From: Alphaproteobacteria bacterium
Lineage (GTDB): Bacteria > Pseudomonadota > Alphaproteobacteria > Thalassobaculales > Thalassobaculaceae
NCBI GenBank assembly: GCA_013203465.1
Contig: JABMNR010000017.1
Span: 1 to 64,000, forward strand
DNA length: 64,000 nucleotides
Reading direction: 5' to 3'
The position numbers and the translations under genes were made by a program. This document shows positions 21,272 through 25,936 of this stretch, piece after piece. Position 1 is the stretch's first letter, and every line of letters starts with the position of its first letter. The notes under the pieces are model-generated. The model was not told the DNA's origin and made no database searches. It worked only from the letters and a program-made list of their open reading frames with translations.

Positions 21272-21393
21272 TTATCCACTGCTGGCAGCCCGCTTGGTGG
21301 CAATTCTCCAAGCAATTAATCCCTTCCGGTGCGCTCTCTGTCGCATTACGGCGGGGAAGTTTACGCTACATTTCGGATCGCGCCATATACGCG

Positions 21394-21409
21394 CCGCCAC
21401 GTAGGGCGG
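21394..21409. other. Short hairpin after the AroM-LuxR gene
   Basis: CCGCC at 21394-21398 and GGCGG at 21405-21409 pair over a 6-base loop, 11 bases downstream of the regulator stop. A TTTCTT run follows only on the plus strand, where no gene ends, so terminator function for the regulator is uncertain. Confidence 0.25.
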
Positions 21410-21419
21410 TTTCTTGTGG

Positions 21420-22382
21420 TTAGAACTCTGACAGACTATCCACGGTTCGCACCAGATCAGTCATCGTCCGGAAGTCCATCTTGCTCATCATGCGGGCACG
21501 ATGGATTTCGACGGTGCGGAAGCTGATGCCGAGCCGGAACGCAATTTCCTTATTGGACAAACCTCCTGCTACCAGGAACATGATCTCCCGTTCACGCACG
21601 CTGAGCAAGCGAAGTCGGTTGGACAGTGGTTCGCACCGCGGGTTCGCATCCCTAGGCGCGGCCAGACGGTCGAGCGCATCCCGGATGGCGCTGGCCACCA
21701 TGCGTCGGGCGAGCACCACGGGCCGGCCGGACCGCGCAGCGGCGAATTTACGCTCCGGCTCGGAATAGGTCACCGAATGCAGCACCACGACGTCACAGCC
21801 TTCCAGCTCGTCGATGGCTGTTTCGAGGGCCACTCGATCGCCAGGGCGAGCGATCGCCACGCGAAGCATCTTTGACCATGGACAGCCGGAGACGATGTGC
21901 TCGCTCTGGTTTTCCAGCGACAGCACGAGGCCCACGATCAACCCGGCGTGGGCGAACGTCTCGATGGCGCGCGCCGCGACGCGATCACAGAAGATCGTGG
22001 CGCGGGCCGGGGCCGGGGCCACTCCCAGCATGGTTGACATCAGCACCACCAGATCGATGTCTTGGCTGGCGATCTGGTGGTGAATCTCCCCCATACGGTC
22101 GCTGGTCCAGTCGAGCGACAAGACCACGTCGCTGCCGTCGCGCAGCCGGGTCAGCAAGGCGGGGTCGCCCGGATCGGGTCCGGCGAGTGCCATGACGTCT
22201 CGCGACACGTTATCCAAGACCCCGAACTCAAGAATCTCCATCGGGCTGCCCACCAGACGGCACAGCTCGGGTACGACATCGTTTCTAGGCGTTTGGCCGA
22301 GCGTGACAAACGCCACGCGCTGCGCGGACGACGGGGAACGAATGTCCGATCCTTTCGACGGGCTTGCCGTATCCCGCGCCAA
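21420..22382 (-). CDS. AroM-family domain fused to LuxR-type DNA-binding domain (regulator)
   Basis: The 320-residue protein joins two domains. Residues about 22-240 match the AroM family: Val-Thr-Leu-Gly-Gln-Thr-Pro-Arg-Asn-Asp-Val near 26-36, as in Val-Val-Gly-Gln-Ser-Pro-Arg of the AroM gene at 25.3 kb. Residues about 255-315 are a LuxR/GerE helix-turn-helix (Leu-Ser-Val-Arg-Glu-Arg-Glu-Ile, then Gly-Leu-Ser-Asn-Lys-Glu-Ile-Ala, then Arg-Thr-Val-Glu-Ile-His). Both cysteines of the enzymatic paralogue align with serines here (Ser116, Ser203), so the domain may sense a ligand rather than catalyse. The start is TTG at 22382, supported by GGAGG seven bases upstream. It is divergent from the DUF917 operon, its likely target. 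Confidence 0.85.
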   Translation of the reverse strand: MARDTASPSKGSDIRSPSSAQRVAFVTLGQTPRNDVVPELCRLVGSPMEILEFGVLDNVSRDVMALAGPDPGDPALLTRLRDGSDVVLSLDWTSDRMGEIHHQIASQDIDLVVLMSTMLGVAPAPARATIFCDRVAARAIETFAHAGLIVGLVLSLENQSEHIVSGCPWSKMLRVAIARPGDRVALETAIDELEGCDVVVLHSVTYSEPERKFAAARSGRPVVLARRMVASAIRDALDRLAAPRDANPRCEPLSNRLRLLSVREREIMFLVAGGLSNKEIAFRLGISFRTVEIHRARMMSKMDFRTMTDLVRTVDSLSEF

Positions 22383-22425: not shown

Positions 22426-22546
22426 TGATGCTACAGCACGCGGAAAGGTCTGATCAAGGCGGGGTGCGTCGCCGGTACGGGCTGGCTCGTATTGGGGCGT
22501 GTCCAACCCTCCCTTTATCATGGCGTACTGGACTGTCGTTCGGACC

Positions 22547-23710
22547 ATGACAACGGAGATGCATTTGCCCGGCCCCCTCGATACCGAGATCGCGTCACGA
22601 CGGCCCGCCGTGGAGCCGCGACCGCCTAGGGAGTTGACCCTTGACGACATCGAGGCCCTGGCGCTCGGCGCCTGGATTCTGGGTACCGGTGGTGGCGGTG
22701 ACCCGTACAACAAACTGCTGAACATGCGCGAGCTGTACCGTCAGGGCCGCTCGGTCACGCTGATCGACCCGCTGAGCTTGTCTGATGACGCGCTGGTTGC
22801 CGTGTTGTCGAACATGGGAGCGCCCTTGGTCGGACAGGAGCGGCTGGCCGACGCCGCCTTCGCGGTCAAGCCGGTGCGCACCATGGAACGCTATCTGGGG
22901 CGCGCTTTCGACGCCGTGATGTCATTGGAGATCGGTGGCGGCAACGGCGTCCACCCGCTGATGGTGGCCGCGTTGACCGGCTATCCGGTGGTCGATGCCG
23001 ACACCATGGGCCGGGCTTACCCCGAGGCGCAGATGACCAGCGTCGCGGTCGCCAACCTGCGTTGCTACCCATTGACGCTCGCCGATATCCGCGACAACGA
23101 GGTGATCATCCCACGGGCCGAGAGTTGGCGTTGGATGGAGCGGATCAGCCGCAAGGTCTGCACCGAGGTCGGTTCGATCGCCGCCACCTGCAAGGCGCCG
23201 AGGACCGGGCGCGAGGTGAAGGATCACGCCATCCTGCATACCACCACCAAGGCGATCGATCTCGGCCGAGCCGTCATGGAGGCGCGAGTACGGCACCGCG
23301 ATCCGGTTCAGGCGATCCTGGGCGCTTGCGACGGCTTAACGCTGTTCACCGGCAAGGTGATCGATGTCGACCGGCGCGCGACCGAGGGATTCCTGCGTGG
23401 TCAGGCGCGGATCGAGGGCCTTGATCGGGATGCCGGGAGCCTGTTCACCGTGCATTTTCAGAACGAGTTTTCGGTCGGTTACCGGGATGGCGAGCCGGTC
23501 GTGATGACCCCGGACCTGATCTGCGTGGTCGACAGCGTGAGCGGCGATGGGATTGGCACCGACGTGATCCGCTACGGCCAGCGGGTCACCGTGTTGGCGC
23601 TTCCCGGTCCCGAGGTGTTCATGAGCGAACGCGGCCTGGAGGCGGTCGGTCCAAGGGCTTTCGGCTTCGATCTCGACTTCCGATCGGTGTTCGAGGGAGG
23701 TCGGTCATGA
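22547..23710 (+). CDS. DUF917 family protein, S-methyl-thiohydantoin desulfurase-like
   Basis: The roughly 387-residue protein is of the DUF917 family, whose domains have been renamed S-Me-THD (S-methyl thiohydantoin desulfurase) in Pfam as I recall it. The glycine-rich Ile-Leu-Gly-Thr-Gly-Gly-Gly-Gly-Asp-Pro near residue 43, the Glu-Ile-Gly-Gly-Gly-Asn-Gly block near 127, and Asp-Ala-Asp-Thr-Met-Gly-Arg-Ala-Tyr-Pro-Glu near 150 are family marks. The start is uncertain: GTG at 22499 and ATGs at 22520, 22547 and 22559 are all in frame and none has a good ribosome site. It overlaps the HyuA-like gene by 4 bases, so the products probably act together on a hydantoin-like ring. Confidence 0.8.
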   Translation: MTTEMHLPGPLDTEIASRRPAVEPRPPRELTLDDIEALALGAWILGTGGGGDPYNKLLNMRELYRQGRSVTLIDPLSLSDDALVAVLSNMGAPLVGQERLADAAFAVKPVRTMERYLGRAFDAVMSLEIGGGNGVHPLMVAALTGYPVVDADTMGRAYPEAQMTSVAVANLRCYPLTLADIRDNEVIIPRAESWRWMERISRKVCTEVGSIAATCKAPRTGREVKDHAILHTTTKAIDLGRAVMEARVRHRDPVQAILGACDGLTLFTGKVIDVDRRATEGFLRGQARIEGLDRDAGSLFTVHFQNEFSVGYRDGEPVVMTPDLICVVDSVSGDGIGTDVIRYGQRVTVLALPGPEVFMSERGLEAVGPRAFGFDLDFRSVFEGGRS

Positions 23711-25269
23711 AGCGGATCGGCGTCGATGTCGGCGGCACCAATACCGACGCGGTTCTGGTCGACGGCGCCGACGTCCTGGGTGCGGTCAAGACGGCGACCA
23801 CCGAGGACGTGACGAGCGGCGTCCGCACCGCGCTGCGCGAGCTGGCAGCGCAGGTCGGTGACGCGATCACGGGTGTTGGGGCGGTGATGATCGGCACTAC
23901 CCACTTCGTCAACGCCGTGGTCCAGCGCCGTCATCTCAACAGGGCGGCCGCGCTCCGGATCTGCCTGCCGTCGTGCGCCAGCCTGCCGCCGATGGTCGAC
24001 TGGCCACAGGATCTTGCGGCTCTGGTCGACGGTGGCAAATATCTGGTCCAGGGCGGTCACGAGTACGATGGCCGCCCGCTGATGCCACTGGACGAGGTGG
24101 CGGTCGCCGAGGCCGCCCGCCAGATGCGCACCGATGGCGTCCGATCGGCGGCGGTCACCTCCGTGTTCTCGCCACTGACCGCCGAATTCGAGGAGCGCGC
24201 GGCCGGCATTCTTCGTGCCGAGCACCCGGACATCCAGGTCACGCTGTCCAGTACGTTGGGGCGGATCGGGTTGCTGGAGCGCGAAAACGTAACAATTCTG
24301 AACGCCTGCCTCGCCGACCTCGCCAACCGTACGGTGAAGGCTTTCGAGGAAGCGATCGCCGAGAGTGGCATCGACGCCCCGTTGTACATCACGCAGAACG
24401 ATGGGACGGTGGCGAGCGCCGCGATCGCGCGCGAGCAGCCGGTCTTCAGCTTCGCTTCCGGTCCGACCAACAGCATGCGCGGTGCCGCCTTCCTGTCCGG
24501 AATCGACGACGCGATGGTGTTGGATGTCGGCGGTACCACCAGCGACGTCGGATGCCTGCGCGCCGGGTTTCCGCGCGAGGCCAACAACGTCGTTCAGGTC
24601 GGCGGCGTCAGGACCCTGTTCCGTATGCCCGATCTGATGTCGATCGGGCTCGGCGGCGGCACCATCGTCCAGGCCGAACCGTTCACCGTCGGCCCGGTCA
24701 GCGTTGGACACCGGCTGACCCAGGACGCGTTGGTGTTTGGTGGCGATACCTTAACCTTGACCGACATCGCGGTGGCTGCCGGCCTTGCCGATATTGGCGA
24801 CCGTAGCCGGGTGGCGACGCTCTCCGGTAGTTTGGTCAATCGCACTGTCATGGACATTCACCGGCGCCTGTTCGAAACCGTCGACCGAATGAAAACCGAT
24901 GCCAGTGAGGTTCCGTTGTTGGCGGTTGGTGGCGGGGCCATGTTGGCGCCGGAGCGCATGGACGGAATATCCGAGGTGGTGCGGGTTGAACACCACGCGG
25001 TCGCCAACGCAGTCGGCGCCGCGATCGCGCAGGTCAGCGGCGAGGTCGATCACGTGTTCCGCGATATGGACCGGGACGAGCTGCTGCGGGTGGCGGAGGA
25101 TATGGCACGTGCGAAGGCGGTGTCCGCTGGGGCCGACCCGTCAACGCTTAAGGTCGTCGACATGGAGGATCTGCCGCTTGCCTATCTGCCGGGCCGCTCG
25201 GTGCGTGCGCGGGTGAGGGTGGTCGGCGACATCGGTGAAACTCAACCTGGAGGGATCACGCATGGCTAA
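23707..25269 (+). CDS. Hydantoinase/oxoprolinase family protein, HyuA-like
   Basis: The 520-residue protein has the actin-like ATPase fold of the hydantoinase A/5-oxoprolinase family: Val-Asp-Val-Gly-Gly-Thr-Asn-Thr-Asp-Ala near residue 6, Leu-Asp-Val-Gly-Gly-Thr-Thr-Ser-Asp-Val in the middle, and Gly-Leu-Gly-Gly-Gly-Thr-Ile. It is shorter than the roughly 690-residue HyuA of HyuAB pairs and lacks a HyuB partner. DUF917 overlaps it upstream (4 bases) and AroM overlaps it downstream (8 bases). It probably phosphorylates or opens a cyclic amide with ATP. Confidence 0.88.
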   Translation: MKRIGVDVGGTNTDAVLVDGADVLGAVKTATTEDVTSGVRTALRELAAQVGDAITGVGAVMIGTTHFVNAVVQRRHLNRAAALRICLPSCASLPPMVDWPQDLAALVDGGKYLVQGGHEYDGRPLMPLDEVAVAEAARQMRTDGVRSAAVTSVFSPLTAEFEERAAGILRAEHPDIQVTLSSTLGRIGLLERENVTILNACLADLANRTVKAFEEAIAESGIDAPLYITQNDGTVASAAIAREQPVFSFASGPTNSMRGAAFLSGIDDAMVLDVGGTTSDVGCLRAGFPREANNVVQVGGVRTLFRMPDLMSIGLGGGTIVQAEPFTVGPVSVGHRLTQDALVFGGDTLTLTDIAVAAGLADIGDRSRVATLSGSLVNRTVMDIHRRLFETVDRMKTDASEVPLLAVGGGAMLAPERMDGISEVVRVEHHAVANAVGAAIAQVSGEVDHVFRDMDRDELLRVAEDMARAKAVSAGADPSTLKVVDMEDLPLAYLPGRSVRARVRVVGDIGETQPGGITHG

Positions 25270-25936
25270 CCCGAAGATTGGCGCCCTGGTCGTTGGCCAG
25301 AGCCCGAGGCCGGAGATCGAGGCGGAGATTCACGCGTTGGCTGGCGGGTCCATCGATCTCGACCTGCGCGGCGCCCTCGATGGGTTGAGCCGTCAGGAGA
25401 TCGACGCGCTGACACCGGAGAGCGCGGCCGACACATTGTTCACCCGCCTGCCGAACGGGGACGGGGTGCGGATCAGCAAGCGCCGGGTGGTGGAGCACGG
25501 CACCGCGAAGCTCGAAGCACTTGCCGCCGCCGGCTACGACGTCACCTTGGTGATGTGCACCGGCGATTTCCCCGACTGGATGGGCCGGTTCCGGGTGATA
25601 TTTCCGTCCCGAACCATGAACGCCATGGTCAAAGCCTGCCTTCCGGAAGGCAAGCTCGGCGTGTTCACGCCGCTTGCCGAACAATGCCCGAAGAGCGAGG
25701 CGCGCTGGCGCGCCGCCGGTTACGACGCCAAGGTGGTCGCGTTGTCACCGAACGCCGGCGAGGACGAAATCCGCGAGGCGGCTGCCACGCTGCGCGATCA
25801 TCGTTCCGAACTGCTGGTGCTCGACTGTATGAGCTATACCCGAACCACCAAGAAAATCGCGCGCGAGGTCGCGGGTGCACCGGCCATCTTGGCGGTGTCG
25901 ACCGCGGTGCGGACAGTGCTCGAATTAGCGACCTGA
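25262..25936 (+). CDS. AroM family protein, candidate racemase-fold enzyme
   Basis: The 224-residue AroM-family protein has the N-terminal Val-Val-Gly-Gln-Ser-Pro-Arg-Pro-Glu block. Two cysteines fall where the two halves of an Asp/Glu-racemase-like site would be: Cys99 in Val-Met-Cys-Thr-Gly-Asp and Cys189 in Leu-Asp-Cys-Met-Ser-Tyr-Thr. No activity is established for AroM to my knowledge; a racemase or isomerase role on a hydantoin-derived acid is inference from the fold and context. A GGAGGG site precedes the ATG at 25262, which overlaps the HyuA-like gene. It is last in the three-gene operon. Confidence 0.85.
   Translation: MANPKIGALVVGQSPRPEIEAEIHALAGGSIDLDLRGALDGLSRQEIDALTPESAADTLFTRLPNGDGVRISKRRVVEHGTAKLEALAAAGYDVTLVMCTGDFPDWMGRFRVIFPSRTMNAMVKACLPEGKLGVFTPLAEQCPKSEARWRAAGYDAKVVALSPNAGEDEIREAAATLRDHRSELLVLDCMSYTRTTKKIAREVAGAPAILAVSTAVRTVLELAT

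Follow-up and report, generated by a model that had tools for sequence, protein, structure and literature searches.

A racemase-like AroM domain without its cysteines in a predicted family of LuxR-type regulators from Alphaproteobacteria

Introduction

What does an AroM domain do in a protein that also carries a LuxR-type DNA-binding domain and has no cysteine at either of the positions where stand-alone AroM proteins carry one? The question is raised by an open reading frame in the 64,000-nucleotide stretch of Thalassobaculaceae DNA analysed here (the window). Quite probably the encoded protein is a one-component, ligand-responsive activator with a catalytically dead AroM sensor, controlling the promoters of a predicted DUF917-HyuA-AroM operon and of an importer. 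The features of the regulator are as follows.

21420 to 22382, minus strand: AroM-GerE regulator, 320 amino acids, TTG start; Pfam AroM and GerE
21681 to 22316, minus strand: AroM (racemase-like) domain, putatively sensing; PF07302; predicted fold similar to racemases and arylmalonate decarboxylase (AMDase)
21444 to 21605, minus strand: GerE (NarL/FixJ-like) DNA-binding domain, residues 260-313; Pfam PF00196
22035 to 22037, minus strand: Ser116 codon, at the position of Cys99 of the stand-alone AroM protein in alignments
21774 to 21776, minus strand: Ser203 codon, at the position of Cys189 in alignments

Domain architecture and predicted fold

The fusion of an AroM domain to a LuxR DNA-binding domain, as claimed in the original prediction, is found in Pfam with both parts above the cut-offs applied (23.8 bits for AroM, 23.5 bits for GerE): residues 23-234 match AroM (PF07302) with 121.7 bits (E 4.2e-35) over positions 1-216 of the 219 in the profile, and residues 260-313 match GerE (PF00196) with 60.5 bits (E 1.2e-16). 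The score against the NCBIfam AroM equivalog is 110 bits, below its cut-off of 198. By sequence, the nearest solved helix-turn-helix domains to the GerE part are those of FixJ and EL222. Pfam matches neither a receiver domain, the N-terminus being AroM, nor an autoinducer-binding domain of the LuxR quorum-sensing type, and since there is no receiver domain a phosphorelay is not expected. Full-length orthologues with 65-69% identity and the same gene order are present in four related genomes (Thalassobaculum fulvum, strain BAL199, and two MAGs, one labelled Thalassobaculaceae), and the start position is kept in all four, as ATG or TTG. The source genome has two AroM matches only, the regulator and the stand-alone AroM protein at 25262-25936. 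A phage origin of the regulator was considered and rejected, with no matches among 50,697 phage records.

Models of the regulator and of the stand-alone AroM protein were made with AlphaFold2 from ten-sequence alignments; confidence is moderate for the regulator (pLDDT 78, pTM 0.67), and the AroM model has a pLDDT of 87. In Foldseek the regulator model matches AMDase and the racemases of allantoin, hydantoin, and glutamate, with E-values as low as 3e-6, a probability of 1.00, and TM-scores of about 0.4-0.5 over the whole chain; it separately matches NarL/FixJ-type regulators. The AroM model hits the same set of enzymes. The N-terminus, on whose AroM-like character the original prediction had staked itself, is thus modelled with the two-lobe alpha/beta fold of the racemase superfamily. 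According to DSSP, the two serines lie just past the ends of strands 111-114 and 198-201 of the regulator model, and the cysteines of the AroM model likewise lie just past strands 94-98 and 184-187. No solved AroM structure was found, nor any solved structure closely related to AroM in sequence.

Gene neighbourhood and predicted operators

The genes around the regulator fall into a divergent operon and a set of importer genes.

22547 to 23710, plus strand: DUF917 / S-Me-THD-like protein, encoded first in the divergent operon, start inferred; Pfam PF06032 and PF20906
23707 to 25269, plus strand: hydantoinase A-like protein (HyuA520); Pfam PF05378 and PF01968
25262 to 25936, plus strand: stand-alone AroM protein with Cys99 and Cys189; Pfam PF07302, 200 bits
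15637 to 21231, minus strand: Opp/Dpp-type ABC importer genes, starts inferred; SBP_bac_5; synteny in orthologues

The importer genes (two ATPases, two permeases, and a family-5 binding protein) lie downstream of the regulator on the same strand, and across 28 fusion loci an importer of the Opp/Dpp type often adjoins the fusion gene. The regulator is directly head-to-head with the DUF917 gene in 27 of these 28 loci, the exception being L109, where about 2 kb separate the two; a HyuA-like gene follows DUF917 wherever the contig extends. No GerE protein was found near related operons that have no fusion. Some loci vary the arrangement: two consecutive DUF917 genes lie between the regulator and the HyuA-like gene in group f67 (L106, L107, L113, L114, L116-L122), and some f42 genomes have two AroM-GerE regulators (L108 8399-9283 and 15843-16742), one divergent from a stand-alone AroM gene and the other from DUF917-HyuA; the predicted operators of the two are of the same type.

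A 16-bp dyad, TAnG-N8-CGTAT, is common to the divergent intergenic regions of fusion loci, and in the window it occurs twice.

22476 to 22492, plus strand: predicted operator TACG-GGCTGGCT-CGTAT at the promoter of the DUF917 operon; dyad in 27 of 27 adjacent fusion loci
22516 to 22521, plus strand: predicted -10 element TATCAT, which places the dyad centre at -44.5; similar spacing in most lineages
21387 to 21403, minus strand: another copy of the predicted operator, TACG-TGGCGGCG-CGTAT, ahead of the ABC importer genes
21358 to 21363, minus strand: predicted -10 element TAAACT for the importer genes, with the dyad centre at -44.5

The dyad was scored on its eight fixed bases with a match threshold of 7/8. 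At least seven are present in every one of the 27 promoters of adjacent fusion loci (23 perfect, four at 7/8 only), although many of the f67 sites are near-copies and only about eight lineages are independent. Of 15 promoters from related loci without the fusion, none reaches the threshold, and the fusion locus L109 has no clear dyad. Nine lineage representatives give nine matches, against about 1.1 expected from dinucleotide shuffles, and five perfect sites against 0.03; only the N8 spacing of the half-sites yields the signal. The dyad was first spotted by eye in the same intergenic regions that were later scored, so the stronger tests are promoters outside motif discovery. There it is present in six of six divergent AroM promoters of the second regulator in group f42, and at promoters of importer genes, in five Thalassobaculaceae loci and three further genomes; the importer-side site at 21387 is conserved at four orthologous loci. 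These unused promoters and the non-fusion controls reduce the circularity, but not fully. A genome-wide scan, by pattern matching only, finds six perfect core sites in the 4.48 Mb source genome, two of which (22476 and 21387) flank the regulator gene. As far as sequence can indicate, then, the fusion is linked head-to-head with DUF917-HyuA and accompanied by an operator-like dyad that tracks its presence.

In most lineages a -10-like hexamer begins 23-25 nt past the dyad, so that the dyad centre would lie at -43.5 to -45.5. NarL binds 7-2-7 inverted repeats and activates ogt from -44.5 (PMC7419079). The dyad appears to have a 7-2-7-like geometry and to abut the -35 region, and by analogy a centre near -44, as counted from a -10-like element, would be the position of an activator. 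A site at this position can also act in repression.

The same protein could be mainly a repressor or autorepressor, which would free the shared divergent promoter region once its ligand appears. NarL-type proteins are capable of repression, and the DUF917 dyad lies between the two divergent genes, in the intergenic region that they share; some lineages have it near the regulator's own start. A mainly repressive role is nevertheless doubtful, since in most lineages the dyad centre precedes the predicted start by about 43.5-45.5 bp, at two separate promoters, and this is the position from which NarL activates (PMC7419079).

A stand-alone AroM gene is near the fusion in many, but not all, loci, and the AroM domain of the regulator might sense by binding that enzyme in a hetero-oligomer instead of a small molecule; the linkage of two AroM copies at many loci would fit this, and Asp/Glu racemases are commonly dimeric. 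However, the fusion is the sole AroM match in four whole genomes (G202, G298, G776, and G796), so the regulator needs no AroM partner, and no stand-alone AroM lies near the fusion at the loci of Ketogulonicigenium and Shinella. Given the fusion-only genomes, sensing through the AroM protein is unlikely, and we give it very little credence. Binding of a small molecule by the AroM domain is the preferred reading.

Loss of both cysteines

BLASTP aligns the regulator with the stand-alone AroM protein of the window over the whole AroM domain (23% identity, E 1e-10), and the correspondence of Cys99 with Ser116 and of Cys189 with Ser203, as first proposed, was reproduced in alignments. Both serines are invariant across five regulator orthologues; the regulator is thus without the signature of two cysteines, one per lobe, of Asp/Glu racemase-type enzymes. 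AroM domains were then compared from 39 distinct AroM-GerE fusions and 77 stand-alone proteins. Among the fusions, site 1 is Ser in 26 and Met in 13 and site 2 is Ser in 37 and Ala in two, with Cys at neither site. Of the 77 stand-alone proteins, 69 carry Cys at site 1 and every one carries it at site 2, and so the conservation on which the argument had been made to depend does exist. The claim that both cysteines have become serine is correct for the lineage of the window, but too narrow for the family, in which Met and Ala also occur; with Ser or Met at one site and Ser or Ala at the other, the general rule is that both cysteines are lost.

The eight stand-alone proteins that lack Cys at site 1 are enterobacterial AroMs, that of E. 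coli among them, so loss at site 1 alone is no mark of a sensor. At the Enterobacteriaceae loci L045-L048, L050-L052, and L132, AroM has Ser at site 1, keeps Cys at site 2, and has no GerE fusion, a single-cysteine state like that of AMDase. Separately, a divergent AroM-like protein at the C-terminal end of an open frame in L029 (G070) has no GerE domain and is missing both cysteines; its N-terminal AroM motif is unrecognisable.

Aligned with the P. horikoshii hydantoin racemase 2eq5, the AroM profile places both sites on cysteines of the enzyme, with a weak E of 0.0066. A racemase review contained no usable statement on Cys-to-Ser changes. As of 2024 no AroM protein had been characterised experimentally (PMC11055893), so a catalytic role for the AroM cysteines is one that we infer.

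The domain could also be that of a trigger enzyme, still catalytic through non-cysteine residues and regulating transcription as well. Other motif residues (the G-P-R, Gln, and Tyr columns) are kept in the fusions, E. coli AroM keeps site 2 only, and single-cysteine members of the superfamily exist, such as AMDase. Both sites, however, are lost in 39 of 39 fusions and the replacement is not fixed at either, which makes retained catalysis improbable and favours a dead enzyme fold used as a sensor.

Distribution and origin of the fusion

AroM (PF07302) was found in 7 of 36 genomes at the level of the order, 15 of 385 at that of the class, and 14 of 398 at that of the phylum, and these surveys were supplemented by targeted ones. 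All fusions found are from Alphaproteobacteria, in about eight lineages: the family of the window, genome groups f16, f42, f67, f128, and f148, and, on plasmids, Neorhizobium, Shinella, and Ketogulonicigenium. Another proteobacterial class, sampled with 369 genomes, yielded no AroM-GerE fusion, and the only AroM in that sample is stand-alone. Seven fusions checked in Pfam (that of the window and six from other lineages) all have AroM and GerE above the cut-offs. The search across genomes that the original prediction called for has therefore returned a recurrent architecture, with the same neighbourhood and a shared predicted operator. That about eight lineages share gene order and an operator-like dyad tracking the fusion makes it scarcely credible that the fusion is accidental or degenerate and regulates nothing.

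In a tree of AroM domains built with both cysteine columns removed, the fusions are a single clade (support 99/97), so the fusion was one event that has been inherited. The clade adjoins a Cys-Cys stand-alone subfamily whose members often neighbour a fusion gene. Most simply, cysteine loss was a single event, no later than the fusion, and was then retained; the reading of 39 fusions as 39 independent losses was rejected, and the cysteine pattern is to be counted as one correlated event. The stand-alone AroM protein of the window falls in a subclade other than that of the fusions' neighbours and was rejected as the parent of the regulator. The regulator had been described as divergent from the operon of its cysteine-bearing paralogue: the head-to-head arrangement stands, but that paralogue is not the closest one. 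Sequence comparison thus supports the architecture, a family-wide loss of both cysteines, and a single origin.

Public labels do not always reflect this architecture. The AroM-GerE regulators at L125 11980-12894, L126 11789-12739, and L124 10946-11836 are called "AroM family protein" or "hypothetical protein," labels that miss the DNA-binding domain. Entries filed publicly as "AroM family protein" thus include regulators, in Ketogulonicigenium and Shinella.

Proposed function and ligand

In the proposed mechanism, the dead AroM fold, of the Asp/Glu/hydantoin-racemase superfamily, would bind one of the pathway's small molecules; the likeliest is a hydantoin-like or cyclic-peptide-like compound that the cell imports, or something formed early in its breakdown. 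A GerE dimer of the NarL/FixJ type would bind the dyads immediately upstream of the -35 regions (22476-22492 and 21387-21403), and the ligand-bound regulator would recruit RNA polymerase from about -44.5, as NarL does, and so turn on uptake and catabolism. DNA binding, dimerisation, ligand binding, the identity of the ligand, and activation over repression are what we infer here.

PMC11055893 describes AroM and DUF917 proteins as experimentally uncharacterised in 2024, with hydantoin-like rings as predicted substrates or isomerisation as the predicted activity, and reports that their genes occur with dipeptide transporters; together these suggest, but do not prove, a hydantoin-like or cyclic-peptide-like ligand. 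Nothing usable on thiohydantoin desulfurase biochemistry was found in the literature searched. Outside Alphaproteobacteria, AroM is found with DUF1177, peptidases, and Opp/Dpp or OPT transporters (L128, L129, and L130), neighbours pointing to peptide-like substrates.

Beyond the single locus, we lean towards an undescribed family of alphaproteobacterial activators with a racemase-fold sensor, cysteines lost once, a pathway for hydantoin-like or cyclic-peptide compounds, and a recognisable operator. If this is true, the ligand of the regulator would show what the uncharacterised DUF917/HyuA/AroM module acts on, and any inducer of the promoter would be a candidate ligand pointing to the module's substrate. 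The family would also be a single-origin example of an enzyme fold apparently turned sensor with loss of both catalytic residues.

Comparison with known systems

The original prediction knew of no described AroM-LuxR transcription factor family, and the literature searched likewise yielded no AroM-LuxR factor, PF07302 regulator, or racemase-derived regulator. The regulator locus has the same gene families as the DUF917/hydantoin-racemase/AroM/dipeptide-ABC clusters, which are neighbours of CDO-like enzymes in PMC11055893; the available part of that paper describes no AroM-fused regulator or operator.

The N-terminal domain resembles the AroM family (PF07302; E. coli AroM, PRK10481) in homology over its full length, but differs in the loss of both cysteine positions and the attached GerE domain. 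The predicted fold is like that of the Asp/Glu/hydantoin racemase superfamily (PF01177; 2eq5, allantoin racemase, MurI, AMDase), from which the regulator differs in having neither cysteine. With NarL/FixJ-type members of the LuxR family it shares the GerE helix-turn-helix and a predicted 16-bp 7-2-7-like dyad near -44.5, but AroM takes the place of the receiver domain. Enzyme-derived sensors are found in other one-component regulators, such as the ROK repressors, RpiR/SIS, and MocR; among those known to us or found described, none joins a racemase/AroM fold to GerE. The regulator is like these in placing an enzyme fold, here as a predicted ligand sensor, beside a helix-turn-helix.
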